A stretch of 64,000 nucleotides of DNA, taken from Blepharisma japonicum. Lineage: Eukaryota; Ciliophora; Heterotrichea; Heterotrichida; Blepharismidae. Under the pieces are notes generated by a model that was given only the letters and a program-made list of their open reading frames with translations, did no database searches and was not told the DNA's origin. The position numbers and the translations under genes are program-made. The stretch spans positions 434,001-498,000 of the forward strand of contig CATKHK010000015.1 of assembly GCA_949751835.1 (NCBI GenBank), given 5' to 3'. Positions 35,886-53,758 of this stretch are shown here, piece after piece. Numbering within the stretch: position 1 is the stretch's first letter; each line of letters starts with the position of its first letter.

Positions 35886-36464
35886 TTTAGAATTGCTTAA
35901 AAATTAATTGATTATATAGTAAAATAATCTATTTGGGATACTACCTTTCAGAGGCATTTTTCATTTCATTAAAAAGACAGAAGAAATAGAAATCCCATTA
36001 GCATAGCCCAAGCAATTAAAATTGCTATTAAAAATATAAAGAATTTTGCTTTAAAAATAATCCTATGAGGTTTATGGATATTTTTTCTTTTGTTCTGCTG
36101 ATAAAGAATGAATTTTTCTTTGTTTTACTTCAATTTAAAAACGCCAAAAAACTAAGCTGATGAACTAATAAAAAATTAAATTCTAGGCTTAAAATATAAA
36201 TGGAATAATTGCAGCCAGAGATTAAAAAGCAACCTCTAAACTTTTATTAATTTAAAATTAAGAAATTCTGAGCAGCTTAGAAACAGCCATTCTAGAAAAT
36301 TCAAAAGAAATTTAATTTTAACCCAAAAATTTTGATTAAACTTAATAGCCAAGTCTCGATAAAAAGATCTAAATCTTTTGAAATATTTTCTATTTGAATT
36401 CTAAAACTACTGGTAAGTATTGAAATAGGTCTAGCATTTTTTGATGGTAATTATATATATAAAA
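35886..36464. other. Intergenic, AT-rich, about 580 bp
   Basis: Between the ArfGAP and PP2C genes, both plus strand. Mostly A/T. A short minus-strand frame with a membrane-like stretch (35969-36124) lacks an ATG and is not called. No repeat or RNA gene seen. Confidence 0.5.
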
Positions 36465-37808
36465 ATGGGATCATGCCTCAAATGCGTCAAGAGTGAAAAT
36501 TCAAATAACAACACGATTTCTATATTGGACTACCCCAGAAACAGAGTTCTCGAGGTGGTTAAATGGAACAAACGAGGAGAAGCAGAAGATTTAATCGAAA
36601 AACGCATAGAACTTACTAATCCTAAGATGGTTCTTGCGAGAGAAATTATACATAAAAATAGGAGATATTTTATTTCAGTTTGTACTTTACCAGGCTTAAA
36701 GGCAGAAACTTTTGTTCCTAAAGTCTGCCAAGATCAGTGCCTTGTAGCAGAAGACTCTAACAGTATTCTAATGGCAATTCATGACGGCCATGGGAGTGAA
36801 GGTGAAAAAGTGAGCTCATTCGTGAGCAATGAGTTAGAAAATTATTATAGAACTCACAAGAGAGAATTTGCTAATTCTCCAAAACAGTCATTAATATCAG
36901 CAACTAAGCATTGCGATGAAGCCCTTTACCAGAGTGGGATTTCAATAACCTATTCAGGCACAACACAAGTCCTAGCTTTAATACAAAATAATGAAGTCTA
37001 TTTTGCCAATGTTGGCGATTCTAGAGCACTTATAGCTTCTGGATCTTCTTGGCCAGCTACAACTTGCCGTTCCAATGATGAGTGGGGATCTATTCTAGAA
37101 GATCTAAAAAAAGCAAGAAAATACCCAAATGCATACCCAGTTAAGCCATATCAATTAACAACAGATCACAAGCCAGATTCTGACACAGAAGTTATGAGAA
37201 TTCTAGAAAGTGGTGGTTGCATCAAAAGAAAATCCAATAACGGTGTCAAATCAGGCCCAAACAGAATTTATAAGTTAACAGAAAAAGCACCAGGTCTCGC
37301 TACCTCCAGAACCCTTGGTGATCGAATAGCAAGACAAATTGGTGTTATTTGTGATCCTGAAATCACTTTTCACACCTTTGATTTTCAGCAGGACGAGTTT
37401 ATCGTTATGGCTTCTGATGGTCTTTGGGATGTGATGTCCAATGAAGAAGTTGTCAATTTTGTAGCTGCCTATAAAGAAAACTGTCAAAAAGAAGTTGTCC
37501 AGTCCACAAGTTCAGAAGCAAATTCAAGCAATTCATGTATTGCCCAACTGTTGTGTGAAGAAGCAAGATTAAGATGGCTAAAGATTTCTGCCTATAAAAA
37601 GACAAATGTTGACGATATTACTTGTATAGTGCTAGATCTCAACAAAGGCAATAACGGTTTATTCACAGAGGAAACAAGCGTTGAGAAATCAGATAATAAA
37701 GTCATGCCTGAAATGAGCCCACACACTCCACATGCGGATAGGCAAAAAGAAATGCTTTTCAAACACGTCATGAATTATGCTCCATTTGAAGCTGGAAGAT
37801 GTCCTTAA
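36465..37808 (+). CDS. PP2C-family Ser/Thr protein phosphatase
   Basis: 447 residues. I chose ATG 36465 because it gives MGSCLKCVKS, a strong N-myristoyl/palmitoyl signal in a good context (aaaATGGG); an ATG 24 bp upstream is less likely. Metal-binding and catalytic motifs: AIHDGHGSEG, ANVGDSRALIASG, ASDGLWDVMSNEEVV and DDITCIVL. PP2C enzymes are Mn/Mg-dependent and often counter kinases in signalling. Probably membrane-attached. Confidence 0.93.
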   Translation: MGSCLKCVKSENSNNNTISILDYPRNRVLEVVKWNKRGEAEDLIEKRIELTNPKMVLAREIIHKNRRYFISVCTLPGLKAETFVPKVCQDQCLVAEDSNSILMAIHDGHGSEGEKVSSFVSNELENYYRTHKREFANSPKQSLISATKHCDEALYQSGISITYSGTTQVLALIQNNEVYFANVGDSRALIASGSSWPATTCRSNDEWGSILEDLKKARKYPNAYPVKPYQLTTDHKPDSDTEVMRILESGGCIKRKSNNGVKSGPNRIYKLTEKAPGLATSRTLGDRIARQIGVICDPEITFHTFDFQQDEFIVMASDGLWDVMSNEEVVNFVAAYKENCQKEVVQSTSSEANSSNSCIAQLLCEEARLRWLKISAYKKTNVDDITCIVLDLNKGNNGLFTEETSVEKSDNKVMPEMSPHTPHADRQKEMLFKHVMNYAPFEAGRCP

Positions 37809-37965
37809 AAGTATGTAAATATTCTATTAATATATCTGGTCAATTTTGGATTTTTGATACTCAAAATATCCAAATATTGTGTCAGTTCTATACATAATCA
37901 GAGATTATTTAATTAATAACGACCGCTTGTAACAATAATTATTTATTAGAATCGAAATGAAGACT

Positions 37966-39015: not shown

Positions 39016-39722
39016 GTTTTCCTATAATTAATATTTAGCATTATCAATTATCAGGAATTAATTTAATGCATATTGGAAATATGGCTATTATGATGAATAA
39101 AATTGAGTTAAATTATTTTTTGAATAAGAAAGCTTACTTTTATATTAATGTTTCTATGCTAATTAGATCAATCAGGAATCTTAAAATTAGTGCTTTTATT
39201 AATTAATTACTTTTCAGCAAACTATTTAAAGCTTAAAATTAGTATTTTTCTGACCAATGAATATATAAATTCTTGATAGGCTTGAACTTATTATATAATT
39301 CTTACTATTCCAGCTTTTCTGTGCAGTTCATTTATAATATAAGCCATCAAGCATTAACTTTTTTAATTTAATAAGTGCTTTCAATATCTATACAGTTTTG
39401 ATATTGCTTAATCATTTGAATTTTGATATTTAATTTGAATTAACTTACGCTATTTATACTGAGCTCTTATTAATAATCCAAAAGAGTAAGATATATGATT
39501 CATCAGCTTCCATTGAAATAGAAATTAATTAAATTAGAAATCATGCAAGCATATTTAATTAAGCAAATAATGCAATCATTTAATTATAATGGAGAGAAAA
39601 ATATCCTTTAATAAAGACACATCACAATATGATTATTTATCTCAAAATGAAATTGCTGATTAAAATTTTGCATTTTTTCTCTCAATCTTATAATTATTTT
39701 AATAGAAGCTCTATATATCAAA
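39016..39722. other. Intergenic upstream of the CHAT-STAND gene
   Basis: About 700 bp between divergent genes. It holds an imperfect hairpin at 39272-39351 and a 24-codon upstream frame at 39589-39663. Otherwise AT-rich with no gene. Confidence 0.5.
39272..39351. ncRNA. Possible hairpin element or ncRNA
   Basis: CTTGATAGGCTT at 39272-39283 pairs with AAGCCATCAAG at 39341-39351 (11 pairs, one bulged A), and the stem continues imperfectly inward through the flanking A/T-rich arms. It may be a small RNA precursor or just chance; no family recognised. Confidence 0.2.
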
Positions 39723-42700
39723 ATGTGGGTGAGCTATTCATACGATGTAGGAAGTCTCAGCTCAGGCTCTGATTTATTCGGCTTTGAAATTCCAGAAAAA
39801 TTCGTTACCGATAATAAAATTTCATATGTAGATCTTTGAAATCTTCTACTAGAACACCAAGCATTTACGAATTCAAGCACAACTATAAGTTACTATAACG
39901 AAGAAATAGGCGCATACAAGAATTTATCCTCAAAAGATAAGCTCTCAGCTGAAAGAGAAATTCAGCTTCTCATCCAAAATTCTCAAATTAGTGAAATTGG
40001 CACTATATTAGAACGAATAGAAGACTTAGAAACCAATATTTCGCATCTTAATTCTGCTCTAAAAGAAAATGACCAAGTAAAATCTTCAAATCAGAGCCAA
40101 GCAAGCTCAGAGCATCTTGACATGGCAATGCTATATGCAGCTCCTCTGACAAGAAAGGATGGAATCAAAATAAAAGAATGCGACAATTGGAATTTAAATT
40201 TTGACTTAGAAAGAAAAAAACTATTAGAAGCTTTTGAAAGAAGCCAAATTCATGCATCAATCAGATTTGAAACAGCAACTTTACAGCATTTAGGGGAAAT
40301 ACTGGAGCTACAACCTAAAATACTTCATATAAGCTGTCATGGGTACTATCAAAGAACTTCTCCTAATGAATTTGTGCTGGCTTTTGAAGACAGTAAATGC
40401 TTGGGTATGAGAGATGAAGTCAACCAAAGTCGGCTCAAGAAAATTCTTGAGACCCATTGCAAGTATTTTAATATCGTCATTGTGAGTGCTTGCTTCTCAC
40501 AAGCTATTGGGAACGTATTTTTAGATGCAGGAATCGATTGTGTAATTACAATTCACGACCAATGCAAAATCTTAGACGATGCTGCTATTTCTTTTGCAGT
40601 TACATTCTATAGAAGCTTGCTCCGAGGAAAATCAATAAAAAAAGCTTTTATTGAAGCAAAGAAGAATGTCAATTTTGAGCAAACTGTCATGAGAACAACT
40701 TGTTGCTGTGCCCATAATCATAAGCGCAATTGCCTTTGAAAAGCTAGGAATGACCATGGAGAGCATACACCAAATGAGGAATGCATCTGTGCAAAACGAA
40801 ACAATGATTCAGTTCATAAGTTAAATTGCCAATGGGCAACCAAATTTCTTGCAAAATTCAATAAAGCAAGGACTCCAAGTGAGCAAGAAATCAAGGATGG
40901 AAGCTGAGTAATTTGCTGCTGTTCGCCAGAAGTCCCTCATAATGAAGCAATGAAATTTAAACTGCTGCTAAAAAACAAAGAAGTAGGGAACCAAATTCTA
41001 TTTTCTGGGCGAACACAAAGTGAAATCCAGGAGCCTTATACATATGAAACTCCTTTTAAGCCTCCTCCAATAAGGCAGAAAATCATAGGGAGAAATAGAG
41101 AAATGCAGCAACTATTAGAAATGGGTAAAAACAACAGAGTTGTAATAGTTAGTGGGAAGCTTGGAATTGGGAAATCACTTCTGGTAAAAAGTGTGGCACA
41201 TTATGCTTGTGAAAGAAGAATATTTAAGCATGGAGTTCTCTATTTAAATCTGCAAGGCAAAACCAATTCAAGCACTATTAATCAAATGATAGCCAAAAGC
41301 TTAAACGTCCCTTGGGAAAAAAGCAAAGAAGAAATTGCAAGAATAATTGAAAACATGCATCTTTTAATAATCCTTGACAATATTGGTGGAATAATTGCTC
41401 ACAATAAAGAAAAAGTAAAAAATAAAATTGTTTCATTGCTAGAAAGGACTCAGTTTCCTAAGTTTTGAATTGTGGTGAGTGGTGAAAACACTTTAAAGCT
41501 AGATAGAGCTGCAGAATTCAAACTAGGAGAACTGAGCAAAAGAGCTGCAGCTAAACTAATTAAAACAAGGACAGAAGTTTACCAGAAAATTAGGAACGAT
41601 GTGCTGAAGCTTTTAAATGTAGTCTGCAAGTCTCCTTCTGAGCTGTTTCAATTGATGCCTGTGCTTATGGAAAAAACAGTTGATGAATTTTTACTTGACT
41701 ATCAATCTCATCATTCTAACCTTAATGAATATGAAGATTCCCGCTCTCTTTATTTATCACTTACTTATCTTCAAAACCGCAAGCCAGAAGCTGTTAATCT
41801 TATCAAGCTACTTTCATTGCTCCCTGTAGGAATTTTTAGAGAAAATCTTAGCCTTATATGCAGCCAGCAAATATGTGACTGAAAAGATGCACTATCACTT
41901 TTAGAGTCACAAGAAGGAGAAGAATGGCTTGTGAAAATACATCTGAATGACCATGCAAACAACTCAGATAATAGTGAAGATGAAGAAAGCCAAGAGCTGA
42001 GGTCAAGCACATTTTTGGATATGAGTGAAAGCTTAAGTTCAATGAAAATTGAGCAATTAACAACTCAAGAAATTCTGATGGTCTCTCAGCCTGTTAAAAA
42101 ATATATTAAATCTGAAGTCACTCCATGGGCTGATAATGCAATGGCTTGTATGGAGTATTTAGCTGCTTTGGCTAGAGCTCTAATGCAAATTACTAGCCAA
42201 CTACCCTCTATGGCATGCTCGAATGTGATGAAATCCCTTGGCAATTTTAACGCATTAAATCCTTCGCCTACCTGAAAGCTCTGCAACTACGAAGAAATTG
42301 TTGCAGAAATATTGAGCACTATAAAAAATTCAATAATTCCTCCCCAGAAGTTATTTGAATGTATGGAACGCAATTTCGCAGACTACCTCAGTGAAAATTA
42401 TTTACGGCAGATTTTTAATGAGCGTAGAGATCCACAAATTGGAAACCTTGTTTTCGAAATGGGTCAATGCGTTATGTGTATATACCTACTTTTTGGGAAG
42501 AAAAATCAAGCATTTAATGTTATAGATAGCATGAAAAAATGCCTTAAAACGTTCAGTGCTAATGAGACACTTAAGCATAAATTGAGACTGTCCTGAAGCG
42601 CTATGAAAATTGAATACAAAAAAAAGTTCAGAATAGAAAAAGCTATAAAACAAGCTGAAAAAGCTTTGCAGCATTTTGAAATTAATGAAATGACTGATTG

Positions 42701-44831
42701 CTTGGCAGAAAGCTATTTATTAAGGGCAATTATTTCTATAAATGCACCTCTTAAGCGAAAAGAAATGTATGAGAATAGAGTAAACGAAATAAATGAAAAC
42801 TTAGAGCAGGCAGCAAGCCGCTTTAAAGATTTATGGTTCAGCATTGGAAGCTCAGGACTTGCAAGATCATATTTACTTTATTGTGAATGAAAAATTTCTA
42901 ATAGTCATAGCGATGAAGAAATAATCAGAAGATTGCAAACTTCTTATAGAATATTCAAAGAACTGAATCTAGTTGGTCTACAGGAAAAATCTCTTTGTTT
43001 ATTGGGAAAAGCTTATTTTAATATCGAAAGTTGAATTGCAGCAGAGGAATCTTGGAGATTCGCATTAGAAATTGCACGAAAATTCAAAGACAGAAGTTAT
43101 GAAGTCGAAATCAACGAGCAGCTAAATTTGATTTTTGAGCGCATAAGAAGGCGCAGCGGTAATGTAATTGTTGTATTGAGAGCATACCCCTTAGTATTAG
43201 TTAACTCAACCACTGGAAATTTTATTTTGGATTCTGTGGTTTGCACTCATTTTTCCCCTTTCAAGAGAATTCTTCTTGATACTTTGTATCAACAACGAAA
43301 GCTTATTTATATGAAATTTGATGTCGGAACAAGACAGAAGCTTATGGAGTATATAAAAGAAGGCTGCAAAGTGCTGCATCTCTCTACCTGCATGCCGCAA
43401 ATAGACTCTTTAGTACTAGAAAACCATAATTTTAGCGCTGATAATGTTTCTTTACCAGAATTAGAAGAACTATTTGGCCTAGCTTCAGAGAGATGCGGAT
43501 TGAGCTTAGTTGTGCTAGCCATGCCTTTATCTAAAAAAATTGGTGAGTATCTATTTAACCAAATCGGTATAGATTTTGTGATATGTTTTGACTATAAAGA
43601 ATATCCACTCTGCAAGTATTTGACACAGCTTCAGTTAATGTTTGAAAAAGCTATAGAAACTTTCTGTGAAAAGTTTTATGCACTGTTAGTTGAAGGGAAG
43701 ACAGTGAAAAAGGCATGAAAGGCAGCAAAGCGTATAAGTGACAACTTTGTTGATACTAATTCAAAATTATTTGAACATTTTAATGAAGAAAACTTCAATA
43801 TTGAAGAACTTTATAAAGGAAAAGGCCCTATTTTGTTAGGAAAAGGAGATAAAGCCTTGTTTAGTGACTCTTCAAGTCATATACTTTCACATGAGTCTGT
43901 TCTATTTCCTGGTAATGTTTTACATACTTCAATACAAGGGCAATATGTAAACATCAAAAGAACAAACAGCAGTCTAGTAGGAAGACATAGGGCAATGTAT
44001 GAAGTTATTGAAAAACTGCTTGAAACCAGGCTTGTTCATATTGTAGGACCAAAAGGTATCGGCAGAAGTTCTTTGATAAAGCATATAGGATATTATATGC
44101 ATACAAGACAAAAATTTTCTGATGGGATATTTTGGATTAATATGAGATCCCAAGGGAGCTTGGCACAATTTAATGAAAATTTAGAAAAAGAAGGCTTATT
44201 CATATCATTCGAGGACAGTGATATGGAAGAGAACCTTAGTCATAAAAATCTGCTTTTAATGCTTGATGATTGCGATGATATTATTAGAGAAGCTAGGGCC
44301 CAGTTTCATAATTTAATTGAAACTTTGCATCGAAAGTATAAAGTTAGCGTAATAATTACAAGCTATCCAATCGAACTTGGGTATCCGTGCGAGAGATATG
44401 AGCTTAATCTTCTTGAACCTTTAGAATCAGCCTCGATGCTTTTAGCATGCTTAGAAAGAAGCCTAGATCGTAAAGAAGTAATTCCTTATAATAAAGAAAT
44501 GAATATTGCTCAAGACCTAGCTGAGTCATCACTTCTAAAAGAATGCATGAATTTACCTCTAAAAATAAAAGAACTCGCTGGTAAACTAAACCAGGAAAAT
44601 TTCAAAGTCCTTGAATTCCAAAGAATTCAAATCAGTGACTCCTATGACTCGCTTCCTTCTGCTGTGTCAACTTTGACTGAAGCAAGTGATTTAAGATGGT
44701 CAGACGAAGAAATTTTTGAAGAAGAAAAAGAGACTAATGGAGATATCAAAGAGCATAAAACAAGAGAGATTTCATTAAAAATGAAAAGAAAAAACACTGA
44801 TTGCTTGAAAGAGCAAAAATCAAAACTTTAA
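39723..44831 (+). CDS. Giant protein with two CHAT-protease + STAND-NTPase modules, 1702 aa
   Basis: One frame from ATG 39723 to TAA 44829-44831 with about a dozen TGA Trp codons. Module 1: helical leader (1-130), a CHAT caspase-like domain with H206 (LHISCHG) and C257 (VSACFSQ), a Cys/His-rich insert (about 325-415), then a STAND-type P-loop NTPase with GKLGIGKS (K484) and LLIILDN. A helical TPR-like stretch (about 850-1130) follows. Module 2: CHAT-like with Cys1223 and Met1267 at the catalytic positions, and a P-loop GPKGIGRS with Arg1448 for Lys, and LLLMLDDCDD. So module 1 looks active and module 2 degenerate. CHAT and STAND proteins elsewhere act in regulated proteolysis, defence or cell death; the role here is inferred. 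Confidence 0.88.
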
Positions 44832-45143: not shown

Positions 45144-45338
45144 TTAAGAACTGCAACGAATTTGCTTTCCTCTTGCCGCTCTGATATTTCTTTCATTTTC
45201 TTTATTGACTCGTGACGCTCTTCTTTTATAAAGTTTATTATGCTTAATGGGCTGAAGTACAGGTATTTGGTTTGTCTTTGTAGAAGAAATTAAGCAAAGC
45301 TGGTTTTCCTGACCCAGGTATTGCATACAGTTTCCCAT
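45144..45338 (-). CDS. Small basic protein with N-myristoylation-type start, 64 aa
   Basis: Start chosen at ATG 45336-45338, giving MGNCMQYLGQE, a typical myristoylation plus Cys signal; an in-frame ATG 54 bp upstream would bury it. The rest is basic (KLYKRRASRVNKENERNIRAARGKQ). TAA at 45144-45146. No family recognised. Several signalling proteins in this window use the same kind of start. Short length makes it uncertain. Confidence 0.5.
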   Translation of the reverse strand: MGNCMQYLGQENQLCLISSTKTNQIPVLQPIKHNKLYKRRASRVNKENERNIRAARGKQIRCSS

Positions 45339-45454
45339 TATATTTTTACTGTTAAAAAGCCAATGGATATTATCAAAAAAATAAGTAACCAAAACTGCTT
45401 AATCCTTGGTTCCGATCAATTTTGAAAAATCATCTGATTACAAAAAAACTTAAA

Positions 45455-46066
45455 TTAAATAATTAGGCATTTATTGTTACATGAGCACACAATTTTTTCA
45501 TCTTCATGATCAGAATAATCAGTTGCGGTAGTTGCGGCTAATTGGTTAATATTTTGCTCTAGCCGCTTAATTGCCTCTTTAAGTTCTTTATTTTCTCTTT
45601 CTTTTCCCTTTAAAATTTCTTCTCTTGTACTAAGTCTATGATTCATAGTTTGCACATCCCTCTGAAGATTTTTCAATTGATCCATTATTTGAGATTCTGC
45701 TGCTGAGACTGAATGGTCGTTATACTCATGGAGGGAGCCTAATTGAATCCTATTATTGTTTTGGATGGGGTTTGGAAATCCTGAAGGCTCAATTTTAATG
45801 TCATTTATTTTAGACTTTACATAAGCCTTTAACTTTTTGGTTTGCTTTTTCATGTCATTTACTTTGTGATTTTCTGTGGATAGGTTTTCTATATCAAGTA
45901 AACTATCTGAATCTTCGTTAGATAGAATTTCATGACATCCAGGACTTGGATAAGAATACAAAGAGCTTTCATCTTCATTAAACTCATTGTGAAATGGGTT
46001 TTCGTATTTTTTTTGATAGGAAATGTCACTTTCAGAGCTCGAACTTGATTTTTGGTCTTCAATCAT
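45455..46066 (-). CDS. Coiled-coil protein with C-terminal CaaX box (A), 203 aa
   Basis: Start at ATG 46064-46066 (MIEDQKSSSSSES); an in-frame ATG 33 bp upstream is possible. Ser/Glu-rich N-terminal half, then a coiled coil (about residues 125-180) and the end CSCNNKCLII, a CaaX prenylation box with nearby Cys. Its C-terminal part (ENKELKEAIKRLEQN) resembles that of the gene at 54434-55300 (ENKELKELIARLGKS), so the two are probably paralogues. Likely membrane-tethered. Confidence 0.75.
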   Translation of the reverse strand: MIEDQKSSSSSESDISYQKKYENPFHNEFNEDESSLYSYPSPGCHEILSNEDSDSLLDIENLSTENHKVNDMKKQTKKLKAYVKSKINDIKIEPSGFPNPIQNNNRIQLGSLHEYNDHSVSAAESQIMDQLKNLQRDVQTMNHRLSTREEILKGKERENKELKEAIKRLEQNINQLAATTATDYSDHEDEKIVCSCNNKCLII

Positions 46067-46348: not shown

Positions 46349-47851
46349 TTACAAAAAAATCATTACTAGACTTATTTCGATAAAGAGCTCAACTCCAAAA
46401 CTTACACAAAATATTCCATGAATATCTTCCATACTGAAAACGAAATCAAAATAATTGTCCGACATTGAATCTTTAAGCTCATAAATTCCCGTAGCGCTAT
46501 CTGCTAAGTAAACATAGCCTCCACATGAGCATATTCCTGAAGGTTCAGCTATATTACTCGTTTCATATAGTTTCTTAGATTTGTCTTTCGGATTGTAAAT
46601 CCATACTTCTCCATTTTCTAGTGTATAAAAAACAGATCCATTGCCTGTGTATGTGACCCCTTTCGCAGATATATTATGAAATGAATAAGTTTCTATCAAG
46701 CCTCCATTTTTGGTTTCAGTTTGTGAATCTGCCTTGTTCAATGTTCCTGAATATCCATCTAGTTGACTATTAATGAAATAAATATCATTTCTGCTATCCA
46801 AATCAATTGCTGTTGGGTAGTTTAATTTGTAATTCATAATGTCTCTTTGATACATAATATAATGCTTATTGAGAAACCCAGAAAATAAGTCCATGTATCC
46901 AATGACGCTGATTTGGTTAAGAGCTGCATCCACGAAATATAGGTTTCCCAAATGATCAACTTTGCAATCATAAGGATTGACTCCGTGATAGATTACATTA
47001 TACATATTTTTAGCTAGAATAAATCTACTATCACTTCATTTTGTTTCATATTGATAAATATAGCCTTTATTATTTAATCTGCTTTCAATAACATATAAAT
47101 AGTTATGATTTTCATCTAAGCAAGTAGCTGTAGGTTTTTGCAGACCTCCAATAAGCTCAACGACCTCATTTTCATTCAAATATAGTGCGCTAACTTTTCC
47201 AGAATCATACTTGTTAGGCAAATATGTTGTTATTAATAGCATTTTTGGTTTAAATACAGACTCTTGTGTTTTACTTTTAAAAACATTAGTCTCAATAAAA
47301 CTTTCAATAACATTTTCATTTTTTCTTTCAGGCTCTGGTATAATTATAGTATTAACTTCATTTGTAATTGCAGATTGGTCTTGATTTGAAATTTGGCCTA
47401 TATTCTGGTTGTTTAAGTTTAAATTCTCTTCAATTCATCCTGCTTCAAGATCTTGTGATAAATCCAAACTGATATGCTCAAGCTTGATTTCATTAGCAAT
47501 AATAATTGGAACTGTATTTTGGAATTCTTGAGTTTTAGTTTCATCTCGATGGTGATCATAAGTATTTGAATCCAAAAATGCTTTCCCTTCTTCTGTTATT
47601 TCTCCTGTTTCAATAGAATTATTGCCAATATTATAGCTGAAATCATCATTATTGGTAAATAGATAATTCTTTTCAAGTTGACCAGCTTTATCATTTTCTA
47701 AAAAAATTGAATAGTCTTCCATTCTGTTATAATTTTCTTCACTCATTTTCATCTCTGATGATACTTCGAGAGGACTCTGCTTTGATGAAGACTCTAAAGC
47801 GAAAAGTTTACTTGTAACGAAAAAAAAGCTTAGAACCTTGGCTACGTTCAT
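46349..47851 (-). CDS. Secreted/membrane beta-propeller (NHL-like) protein, 500 aa
   Basis: Frame joined through TGA Trp codons at 47435 and 47036. A signal peptide (MNVAKVLSFFFVTSKLFA) leads into an acidic region of about 190 residues. The C-terminal 270 residues form propeller-like repeats (KPTATCLDENHNYLYVIES, YPTAIDLDSRNDIYFINS, EPSGICSCGGYVYLADS). It ends with a hydrophobic stretch (VELFIEISLVMIFL). A surface or vacuolar protein; no enzyme signature seen. Confidence 0.75.
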
Positions 47852-49894: not shown

Positions 49895-50575
49895 CTAATA
49901 ATCTACTAAGAATTCAGATGGTGAGTCAATTTCATCTTTGAATTCACTACTATCATAAGATGAAAAAGAATTTTTTCTTTCTCCATCTTCATAAGTGAAA
50001 TTGCTTTCCTCACTATAAAAGCCATTACCTTCTCCAATCTCTCCACCGCTTTCAATTCTAATTGTTCCTAACAGTTCATTTGCTTCAAGTCCAGCCCTTT
50101 CACCTTTCCTAATAATACTTTTCCACCTATTTTTTACACTATTTTCAGTTCTACCTTGTAATTCCTTTGAAATCTGGCTTCACTTGCTTCCAATTTCTTG
50201 CTGCCTTTTCAAAATATACATGTCTTCATCAGCAGTCCATCCTCCTTTTTTCAATGACGGATTTAAATGGTTTCCTCATCTTTCTCTGCATTGTTTTCCA
50301 TGCCTTATTAATTTTCCACGATACATTAAATCATTTAACTCCTTAGAAATTGCAGTTCATTTTCTTGTGCCTCTTTTTTTAACAAGTTCCATCAGCAATT
50401 GGTCTTCTTTTTCAGTCCATGATTGCCTTTGAACGTTCATTTCACTTATTTCTGGTCTGCAAACGGGTATAAATTTTTTGCTAGAATCGTCAATTTTGCA
50501 AGGGACCATTCATACATCATTATCGACTTCATATGCAGCGTTGTAGCTGCCCATTTTCTTTCCTTTAGTCTCCAT
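49895..50575 (-). CDS. R2R3-type Myb DNA-binding protein, 226 aa
   Basis: ATG 50573-50575 (METKGKKMGSYN) to TAG 49895-49897. Two Myb repeats (about residues 47-145): SWTEKEDQLLMELV...RKWTAISKEL...QCRERW, then GGWTADEDMYILKR...SKWSQISKEL...SVKNRW. The spaced Trp residues are partly TGG and partly TGA, so the gene is invisible under the standard code. An acidic Ser/Glu-rich tail follows. Likely a transcription factor. Its start is 52 bp from the end of the CDPK gene on the same strand. Confidence 0.88.
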
Positions 50576-50627
50576 TTCATTTATATATCTTATATATTTA
50601 TTAACTGGATATATTACTGATTTATTG

Positions 50628-52405: not shown

Positions 52406-52825
52406 TATTAAATAAGCAAGAATATATTAAAAATATAATTAATGAATAAGTTCAGTCGAATTCTAATTCAAGAAAAATTAGCAAAGAGTTATTTATAATT
52501 GAAAATGCTATTGAGTATGTATTTTTGTTTCAAGAATAATTAAAAATATTTTTTAATAATCTATTAGGATATAAAATTGGCTCATTAAATTGGAAAAATT
52601 TCAATATTGGTCGCCATATCTTTTCAAAACAATACCAAATTAAAAGAAACAAAAGGTTTAAACATTTTTTAAGCATAAAAGCGCTGTGCAATAATAAATG
52701 TATTTGATGCAAAACTTTTATATTAATGATGGCGTTTATTTTAGTCATTTATAATTCGCTGTGTTGAAATAATTCACTAAAGCTTTATTTTTTAGTTAGC
52801 ATGATTGCTACTAATATACACATAA
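52406..52825. other. Intergenic, AT-rich
   Basis: About 420 bp. A 72-codon minus-strand frame (52530-52748) is hydrophobic and AT-driven and is not called. No other feature. Confidence 0.5.
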
Positions 52826-53758
52826 ATGGACAAAACTGGCAAGAAAAATAAGAAACGATTAGATGATGATTCCGAAGACAGCTATTATGAAGTCCAGCTA
52901 GAAGACATAATCACTCAGGTCAAGCCTGAGGACCAAGTTTCAAGAAGTTCATTAACCATATACTCCTTTGCCAAGTTTCTCTATTCATTTTGTTCATGCT
53001 TAAAAGTATCCACAAAAAAGCCTCAAAAAATAACAGAAAAATCTGTTTTACTCCCTCCAAAAGATTTTCAATCAAAAGTAACCAAGACACTTGTATTAGA
53101 TTTGGATGAAACATTAGTGCACAGCTCATTAAAGTCAGTCAACAACCCAGATATGGTTATTCAAATAGAAGTTGAAGGAATAACAAGCTTGATTTATGTC
53201 AAGATTCGGCCAGGAGTTTCTGAATTTTTGACTAAACTATCAAAAGTATATGAAATTGTGCTATTTACTGCAAGTTTATCTAAATATGCAAATCCAGTGA
53301 TTAGCAAGTTAGATCCAAACAATTATATAAGCTCAAGGCTGTTTCGTGAAAATTGTGTTGTGTATAATGGAAATTATGTGAAGAATTTAAGCCAGCTTGG
53401 AAGGAATGTAAAAGATGTAGTTATTGTGGATAATTCACCAATTGCATATTCCATGCATCCAAATAATGCTGTTCCTATCAAATCATGATTTGATGACGAA
53501 TATGATAAAGAACTTGGGAAAATTATTCCAATTTTGGAAAGTTTATCAAGAGTTGAAGATATTCCTTCAGTGATTCAAGATTTGAATCAGAGGAAAATAG
53601 AGCTAACTCCGACAAACATTTTAAATTTACCAAAAACTATCCAGCAGCAAGTTGAGCTACCTGGACCAAAAACATACAGAGAAGAAGAAAGAAGCTTCTT
53701 CAATTCTCCATTGCATAGATCGACTCCTGAAAAAGTATTCAGATTTGAAACTAATTAA
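52826..53758 (+). CDS. SCP/FCP1-type phosphatase (CTDSP-like)
   Basis: 310 residues. HAD-type phosphatase core with DLDETLVHSS (nucleophile first Asp), the YVKIRPGVSEFL block, FTASLSKYANPV and VVIVDNSPIAY. TGA at 53486-53488 is Trp in KSWFDD, a conserved position. The family removes phosphates from the RNA polymerase II CTD or from signalling proteins. An N-terminal CSCLK segment may be acylated. The C-terminal 100 residues are not conserved. Confidence 0.92.

Follow-up and report, generated by a model that had tools for sequence, protein, structure and literature searches.

Fungal nucleotide-binding oligomerization domain-like receptors (NLRs) carry a CHAT caspase-like protease as an N-terminal signaling module, and CHAT proteases activate gasdermins, according to the portions of two reports available to us (PMC12881547, PMC10197012). 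In the accessible text of a further study, Craspase, the TPR-CHAT protein of type III-E CRISPR systems, has a His-Cys dyad at H585/C627 (PMC9729208). Separase is described as caspase-like and CHAT-related. CHAT proteases on STAND switches connect bacterial anti-phage systems with fungal cell death. Here we describe a gene of the ciliate Blepharisma japonicum with two CHAT-STAND modules in tandem, at positions 39723-44831 of a 64,000-nucleotide stretch (the window; assembly GCA_949751835.1, contig CATKHK010000015.1, positions 434,001 to 498,000, forward strand). The tandem observation, first made in an earlier note on this DNA, holds, and the second CHAT domain appears to be a maintained pseudoprotease. 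Like the fungal CHAT-NLRs as far as the consulted text describes them (PMC12881547, PMC10197012), the protein combines a CHAT effector, a STAND NTPase and superstructure-forming repeats in one chain; unlike them it has a ciliate host, a second pseudo-CHAT-STAND module, a Cys/His-rich block and no gasdermin match in its genome at E ≤ 1. No ciliate CHAT-STAND protein was described in the limited set of open-licence literature searched, judged by title and the start of the abstract, in agreement with the earlier note, which knew of no description of this tandem form in a ciliate. The ciliate tandem is a novel variant on a known kind of CHAT-STAND-TPR protein.

Genome searches started from the window protein (E ≤ 0.001) or from the most distant paralog (E ≤ 0.01), in which the best candidates were scored, returned the same four full-length tandem genes: the window copy, C12 (78% identical), C7 (51%) and C39 (30%). 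Single-module relatives were absent from these best candidates. All four paralogs carry both modules in one uninterrupted frame at separate loci of the assembly, a recurrence that leaves it scarcely conceivable that two adjacent genes, or an assembly artefact, were read as one. Unrooted CHAT and STAND trees parted first from second modules by a 100/100 branch, so that the two-module form predates the paralogs, and the tandem-gene family appears to be old; several forks inside the module groups were unresolved, and CHAT1 of C39 formed a long branch.

The frame itself comprises 1702 codons plus a TAA stop on the forward strand, open throughout when TGA is read as tryptophan, as the earlier note had proposed. 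All 10 in-frame TGA codons lie opposite Trp in at least one paralog in the paralog alignment, nine of them opposite a TGG codon, and the TGA=Trp reading is therefore correct. In the same alignment the window copy shows no 5-residue gap anywhere against C12 or C7, which disfavours an unspliced 15-nt intron inside the frame. In the part of the Blepharisma stoltei genome report available to us, UGA likewise encodes Trp and introns are mostly 15-16 bp (PMC9942806). On the opposite strand, frame 1 (the only reverse frame translated through) was packed with stops. The domain order in the one chain is CHAT1, Cys/His-rich block, STAND1, TPR-like region, CHAT2 and STAND2, with these features:

39723..44831, + strand: whole gene, 1702 aa plus TAA, as a TGA=Trp frame.
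39723..39983, + strand: N-terminal segment, residues 1-87, ubiquitin-like or PB1-like by reading only; the segment is present in 4/4 paralogs.
39984..40073, + strand: possible coiled coil, residues 88-117, from a heptad-like reading and weak profile matches to GCN4 chains (E ~0.07).
40113..40688, + strand: CHAT1, caspase-like protease domain, residues 131-322, with His206 and Cys257 (Pfam, PDB 8tl0).
40689..40967, + strand: Cys/His-rich block, residues 323-415, an insertion close to the C terminus of CHAT1 that may bind metal (invariant Cys/His).
41073..41642, + strand: STAND1 NTPase (NACHT/NB-ARC), residues 451-640, with K484 and D552 (Pfam, motif alignment).
41643..42302, + strand: winged-helix-like and linker region, residues 641-860, by reading only.
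42303..43157, + strand: TPR-like region, residues 861-1145 (four-paralog profile against LGN/Pins TPR chains).
43158..43847, + strand: CHAT2, protease-dead CHAT, residues 1146-1375, with Cys1223 at the His position and Met1267 at the Cys position (profile comparison).
43935..44612, + strand: STAND2 NTPase, residues 1405-1630, with Walker-A Arg1448 here and Lys in the three other copies (Pfam NB-ARC).
44613..44828, + strand: C-terminal tail, residues 1631-1702, weakly conserved (4/72 positions invariant).

The first module appears intact, as had been claimed for it, with both the H206/C257 dyad and the K484/D552 pair in place; motif alignment put the key residues named in the earlier note (H206, C257, K484, C1223, M1267 and R1448) where it had placed them. 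Pfam CHAT (PF12770) matched residues 163-317 with 50.3 bits against a cut-off of 24 (E=3.1e-13), and CHAT1 matched PDB 8tl0, which we take to be a SAVED-CHAT filament, at E=1.6e-4, with H206 and C257 aligned on H355 and C402 of that chain; its dyad also lines up with that of other CHATs. The dyad is present in the window copy, C12 and C7. CHAT1 of C39 (locus L006, contig C39, 192800-200600) has Gln in place of the catalytic His and keeps the Cys, so that neither C39 CHAT has the dyad; the same copy retains both Walker-A lysines and the Cys/His block. The whole protein exceeded the Pfam cut-offs for NB-ARC (55.8 bits vs 23.5) and NACHT (51.4 vs 26.7), with two stretches each, the best NACHT stretch being 472-590 (E=1.5e-13), and STAND1 has its Walker-A Lys and Walker-B Asp in all four copies. 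The order CHAT1-STAND1-TPR-like is that of tripartite NLR-like proteins (effector, nucleotide-oligomerization domain, repeat), although the TPR part consists mainly of one stretch of about 50 residues: the four-paralog profile matched LGN/Pins TPR chains best at about residues 1077-1127 (E=3.4e-12), and Pfam TPR_1 at 1089-1120 was under its cut-off.

CHAT1, in which 64 of 192 positions are invariant, ranks as one of the best-conserved parts of the protein, exceeded by the Cys/His block alone (32/93). In that block, all 16 Cys and His residues are invariant in the four paralogs, whereas its remaining residues are invariant at 16 of 77 positions (Fisher p=1.6e-9) and the Cys/His outside the block at 12 of 68. 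By reading, the block is inserted after the last helix of the CHAT1 caspase-like fold and before its last strand, and CHAT2 is without it. It had neither a Pfam nor a plasmid match, and in its own genome at E ≤ 1 it was found just in the four tandem genes. The pattern suggests that the block may bind metal. Neither this block nor the loss of the C39 CHAT1 His featured in the earlier note.

Homology of the two halves was evident in profile-profile comparison: hhalign aligned half 1 with half 2 over 432 columns (probability 99.2, E=6.7e-20), compared with E=0.35 for reversed half 2, using profiles of four rows each and low diversity. This bears out the earlier claim of tandem CHAT-STAND modules, as do the Pfam CHAT, NACHT and NB-ARC matches. 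Because the alignment spans about 134-648 in the first module and about 1149-1622 in the second, leaving residues 641-860 outside it, the second module is without the winged-helix-like and TPR-like parts. CHAT2 is visible as a homolog solely by profile-profile comparison, with CHAT1 (E=1.7e-12) and with five bacterial CHATs (probability 97.1, E=7e-11), where control comparisons using reversed sequence, or this protein's own TPR or N-terminal part, gave E=0.14 or worse. The whole-protein Pfam scan at E ≤ 10 placed its only CHAT stretch in module 1, and residues 1181-1410 alone (CHAT2 minus its first 35 residues) gave no Pfam CHAT match. STAND2 was matched by Pfam NB-ARC (E=5.4e-15, best stretch 1424-1627); module 2 alone scored 38.9 bits against 23.5 for NB-ARC, over the cut-off, and 21.0 against 26.7 for NACHT, under it. 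The STAND1 and STAND2 profiles matched each other at E=3.8e-16, compared with best matches of 1e-8 (STAND1) and 8.4e-7 (STAND2) to the genome's other NB-ARC/NACHT loci, the latter a weaker test of single sequences against profiles (seven loci, with a P-loop stretch from six and none from L028). The second module is likely the product of an internal duplication and not of a fusion between two related genes.

The earlier note regarded the second module as a dead half. For CHAT2 this stands: the His-Cys dyad is found in 0/4 copies, the His position being taken by Cys (two copies), Asn or Glu, while the Cys position is Met in all four, within an invariant A-M-P, and the protease-dead state of module 2 is therefore a trait common to the family. 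For STAND2 it does not, since the Walker-A Lys is present in C12, C7 and C39 and Asp1515 in 4/4 copies. Arg1448 (AGA), peculiar to the window copy, differs by a single base from the AAA codon that C12 and C7 have there. Most simply, the ancestral STAND2 had the Walker-A Lys and the Arg arose later. STAND2 is not a dead NTPase across the family.

Divergence between the paralogs points to constraint on both modules. Between the window copy and C12, nonsynonymous divergence (dN) reached 0.41 in the tail and lay at 0.05-0.19 in the other nine of the ten parts compared. Synonymous divergence (dS) had gone to saturation in four parts, ranged over 1.4-2.1 in another five and stood at 0.60 in the first 130 codons; dN/dS, where defined, was 0.03-0.31, a qualitative guide given the saturation. 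CHAT2 had a dN of 0.12 with 0.82 of synonymous sites different, and STAND2 a dN of 0.13 with a dS of ~2.1. The picture was less clear for the more distant copies, with a dN/dS of 0.51 in the tail against C7 and of 0.47 in the N-terminus against C39. Identity to C12/C7/C39 was 89/71/40% in CHAT1, 83/66/44% in the Cys/His block, 91/62/34% in STAND1, 79/41/24% in the TPR region, 79/50/34% in CHAT2, 77/50/32% in STAND2 and 49/26/17% in the tail. CHAT2 thus equals or exceeds the TPR region in conservation, and STAND2 does so in the comparisons with C7 and C39. When C7 was taken as outgroup, changes over the whole protein numbered 87 in the window copy and 64 in C12 (p=0.07), with no significant excess in STAND2 (16 vs 11) or CHAT2 (12 vs 7), and Arg1448 thus seems to have come without clear decay of STAND2.

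These data bear on the view that the second module is merely a decaying remnant. The lost dyad, the missing Walker-A Lys of the window copy and the lack of a second winged-helix or TPR part would all suit such a remnant, but constraint despite saturated synonymous divergence, the A-M-P kept in 4/4 copies and the absence of a significant window-copy excess over C12 make it very improbable. The earlier picture of one degenerate module, a lone decayed duplicate, has to be given up for the same constraint, and for the presence of both modules in all paralogs and their 100/100 separation in the trees. CHAT2 is better regarded as a maintained pseudoprotease, because the dyad is absent throughout the family while A-M-P is invariant and the sequence is constrained.

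In the first 130 codons (window 39723-40112), dS to C12 was 0.60, compared with 1.4 to saturation elsewhere, and fourfold-site identity to C12 in 40-codon bins was noisy. Gene conversion with C12, or noise, are possible causes of the low value.

A maintained pseudoprotease beside an active protease often works by pairing with it, as pseudocaspases do, and for this reason the role we favour for module 2 is that of a partner regulating CHAT1. In the reading we prefer, and hold with roughly even confidence, the protein would be an NLR-like signaling ATPase with the N-terminal CHAT as effector and the second module as a regulatory pseudoprotease-NTPase. The fungal CHAT-NLRs and the CHAT proteases acting on gasdermins serve as precedents (PMC12881547, PMC10197012). 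The TPR-like region, perhaps also the N-terminal segment, would receive a signal; STAND1 would change its nucleotide state and the protein would self-associate, which would put CHAT1 into an active arrangement in which it could cleave a target protein. The CHAT2-STAND2 module would pack on CHAT1 of the same or a neighbouring chain and set the threshold, akin to a pseudocaspase partner tuning a caspase; the second module may in this way sense or inhibit the first, as the earlier note suggested. We infer the signal, the oligomerisation, the protease activity, the regulatory role of CHAT2 and any cell-death or defence output.

Several points weigh against this reading. Relative to C39, the linker 416-450 (35 codons) had a dN/dS of 1.14 and the tail 0.61, and dN/dS is merely qualitative throughout because synonymous sites are saturated. 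CHAT1 matched bacterial CHATs (E=2.5e-21) better than it matched CHAT2; this fits fast change of a dead domain and also permits a fusion of related genes. None of the ten scanned neighbours is a defence gene. A gasdermin output of the fungal or bacterial type is not supported, as PF04598 had no match in the genome at E ≤ 1, in a search of unproven sensitivity in which no control genome passed the cut-off either. Finally, the missing His of the C39 CHAT1 indicates that proteolysis is dispensable for some members; the C39 copy could be purely regulatory, or proteolysis could be other than the main function.

This last point leads to a family of non-proteolytic scaffolds, in which CHATs are interaction modules, STANDs are assembly switches and catalysis is dispensable or vestigial. 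In its favour, CHAT2 is dead in 4/4 copies and the CHAT1 His is gone in one of four, a copy that retains the Cys/His block. However, H206 and C257 are kept together in three of the four copies and CHAT1 is second in invariance to the Cys/His block, and we consider a scaffold unlikely. Of slightly better standing, though still tentative, is a developmental or housekeeping protease switch, acting for instance when the old macronucleus is removed, in encystment or in control of the cell cycle, in place of a defence or cell-death receptor. The window holds 27 open reading frames of at least 260 aa including this gene, and nine of the ten neighbours scanned match ordinary eukaryotic families (PP2C, CNNM, short-chain dehydrogenase, EF-hand kinase, NIF phosphatase, ArfGAP, XPG nuclease, CFAP74/65-like and ankyrin-SAM), the tenth (46349-47851) having no Pfam match. 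Such surroundings (PP2C, CNNM, ArfGAP, CFAP74/65-like) would suit a developmental role, as would the recovery of four members among the best candidates and no large variable set; the neighbours also show that the gene is not a bacterial contaminant. Described proteins of similar architecture, in contrast, are NLR-like or defence-linked, and in comparisons with C7 and C39 the TPR region is one of the more variable parts, as a sensor might be.

Returning to the NLR-like signaling ATPase, a more elaborate form of it can be entertained with similarly limited confidence: an asymmetric machine of two NTPases and two CHATs in which a new Cys/His metal site couples protease and NTPase, and the dyad-less paralog acts in trans. 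If true, the two-CHAT machine would be the caspase-clan switch, for death or defence, of a ciliate whose genome gave no Peptidase_C14 (caspase/metacaspase) match at E ≤ 0.001; that search did match one control genome and, like the gasdermin search, could miss genes that are divergent or split by introns. In a ciliate, a conserved family with a pseudoprotease module built in would carry the CHAT-STAND link into another eukaryotic branch. It would also give researchers a single natural chain that holds active and dead caspase-like domains side by side, each with an NTPase, and may reveal how receptor-protease switches are controlled. Because C12 and the window copy differ at the second Walker-A residue, the need for the STAND2 NTPase could be addressed with native proteins.

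Pairing of an inactive caspase-like unit with an active one is familiar from cFLIP. In gingipain R, two similar subdomains form such a pair, and separase was found to have no second inactive caspase-like domain, contrary to an earlier report, in the available part of one study (PMC4626109). Unlike cFLIP and gingipain R, each ciliate caspase-like unit has its own STAND NTPase, all in one chain. CHAT1 shares a His-Cys dyad with Craspase TPR-CHAT and SAVED-CHAT, but the ciliate protein has STAND NTPases in the chain and no CRISPR or SAVED part was found in it. Among 72,556 plasmid records, eight matched module 1 in the CHAT core, with 27-33% identity and a coverage of 19-25% of the query, and tblastn with module 2 matched none. 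The shared CHAT core extends to BBD63139.1 of a Nostoc plasmid (CHAT-TIR-AAA_35) and other plasmid CHATs; those have other partner domains, and in 0/8 did the match cover the NTPase. Phages gave no tblastn match to module 1. Pattern scans with the first-module alignment, which detect close relatives only, gave 135 hits in genome contigs of bacteria and archaea and 138 in viral contigs, with 0 confirmed by tblastn. PADLOC profiles mad8 (5.7e-7) and PDC-S01 (4e-6) fell on the STAND1 part and SAVED_CHAT (6.7e-4) on CHAT1, and six weak NCBIfam matches to the P-loop parts were all well under their cut-offs.

Outside the modules, 15 of the first 130 positions are invariant across the four paralogs. 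The N-terminal segment had no significant Pfam match and an unconvincing top PDB match (E=0.016), and profile searches gave no backing to its reading as PB1 or ubiquitin-like. Residues 651-900 likewise had no significant Pfam match. Beyond the gene, collinear matches between the window and the fetched C12 flanks, at 71-79% DNA identity, were found at 36435-37865, 39721-40757, 44055-44731, 45144-45736, 49902-50584 and 52812-53715. The window/C12 block would represent an old segmental or whole-genome duplication.

The genome comprises 45.2 Mb in 224 contigs. Three-unit CCCTAACA repeats occurred 77 times forward and 91 times in reverse, with 0 in the backward control, and were located within about 450 bases of the start in at least seven contigs and at the very end of C7; CCCTAACA is also the telomere unit of B. 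stoltei in the accessible text of its genome report (PMC9942806). The sole CHAT-profile match at E ≤ 0.01 outside the tandem family was a gene named separase-like by reading (L010 1-1851, contig C34), with 21.6 bits, under the cut-off. Its kinship with CHAT1 and CHAT2 was unconvincing (profile E=0.036 and 0.15), and we know of no STAND NTPase in separase. The NB-ARC profile also led to a 769-aa frame on the minus strand of contig C98 (L020 76-2382) with an AAA_22/NB-ARC-like P-loop (AAA_22 at 159-246, E=5.9e-8) ahead of a kinesin motor (321-630, E=4.6e-95); if this is one gene, the combination of STAND-like and kinesin parts is unusual. A second NB-ARC match (L021) lies about 10 kb from L020 on the same contig, and its reading frame stays open across 1061 codons of the sequence retrieved.

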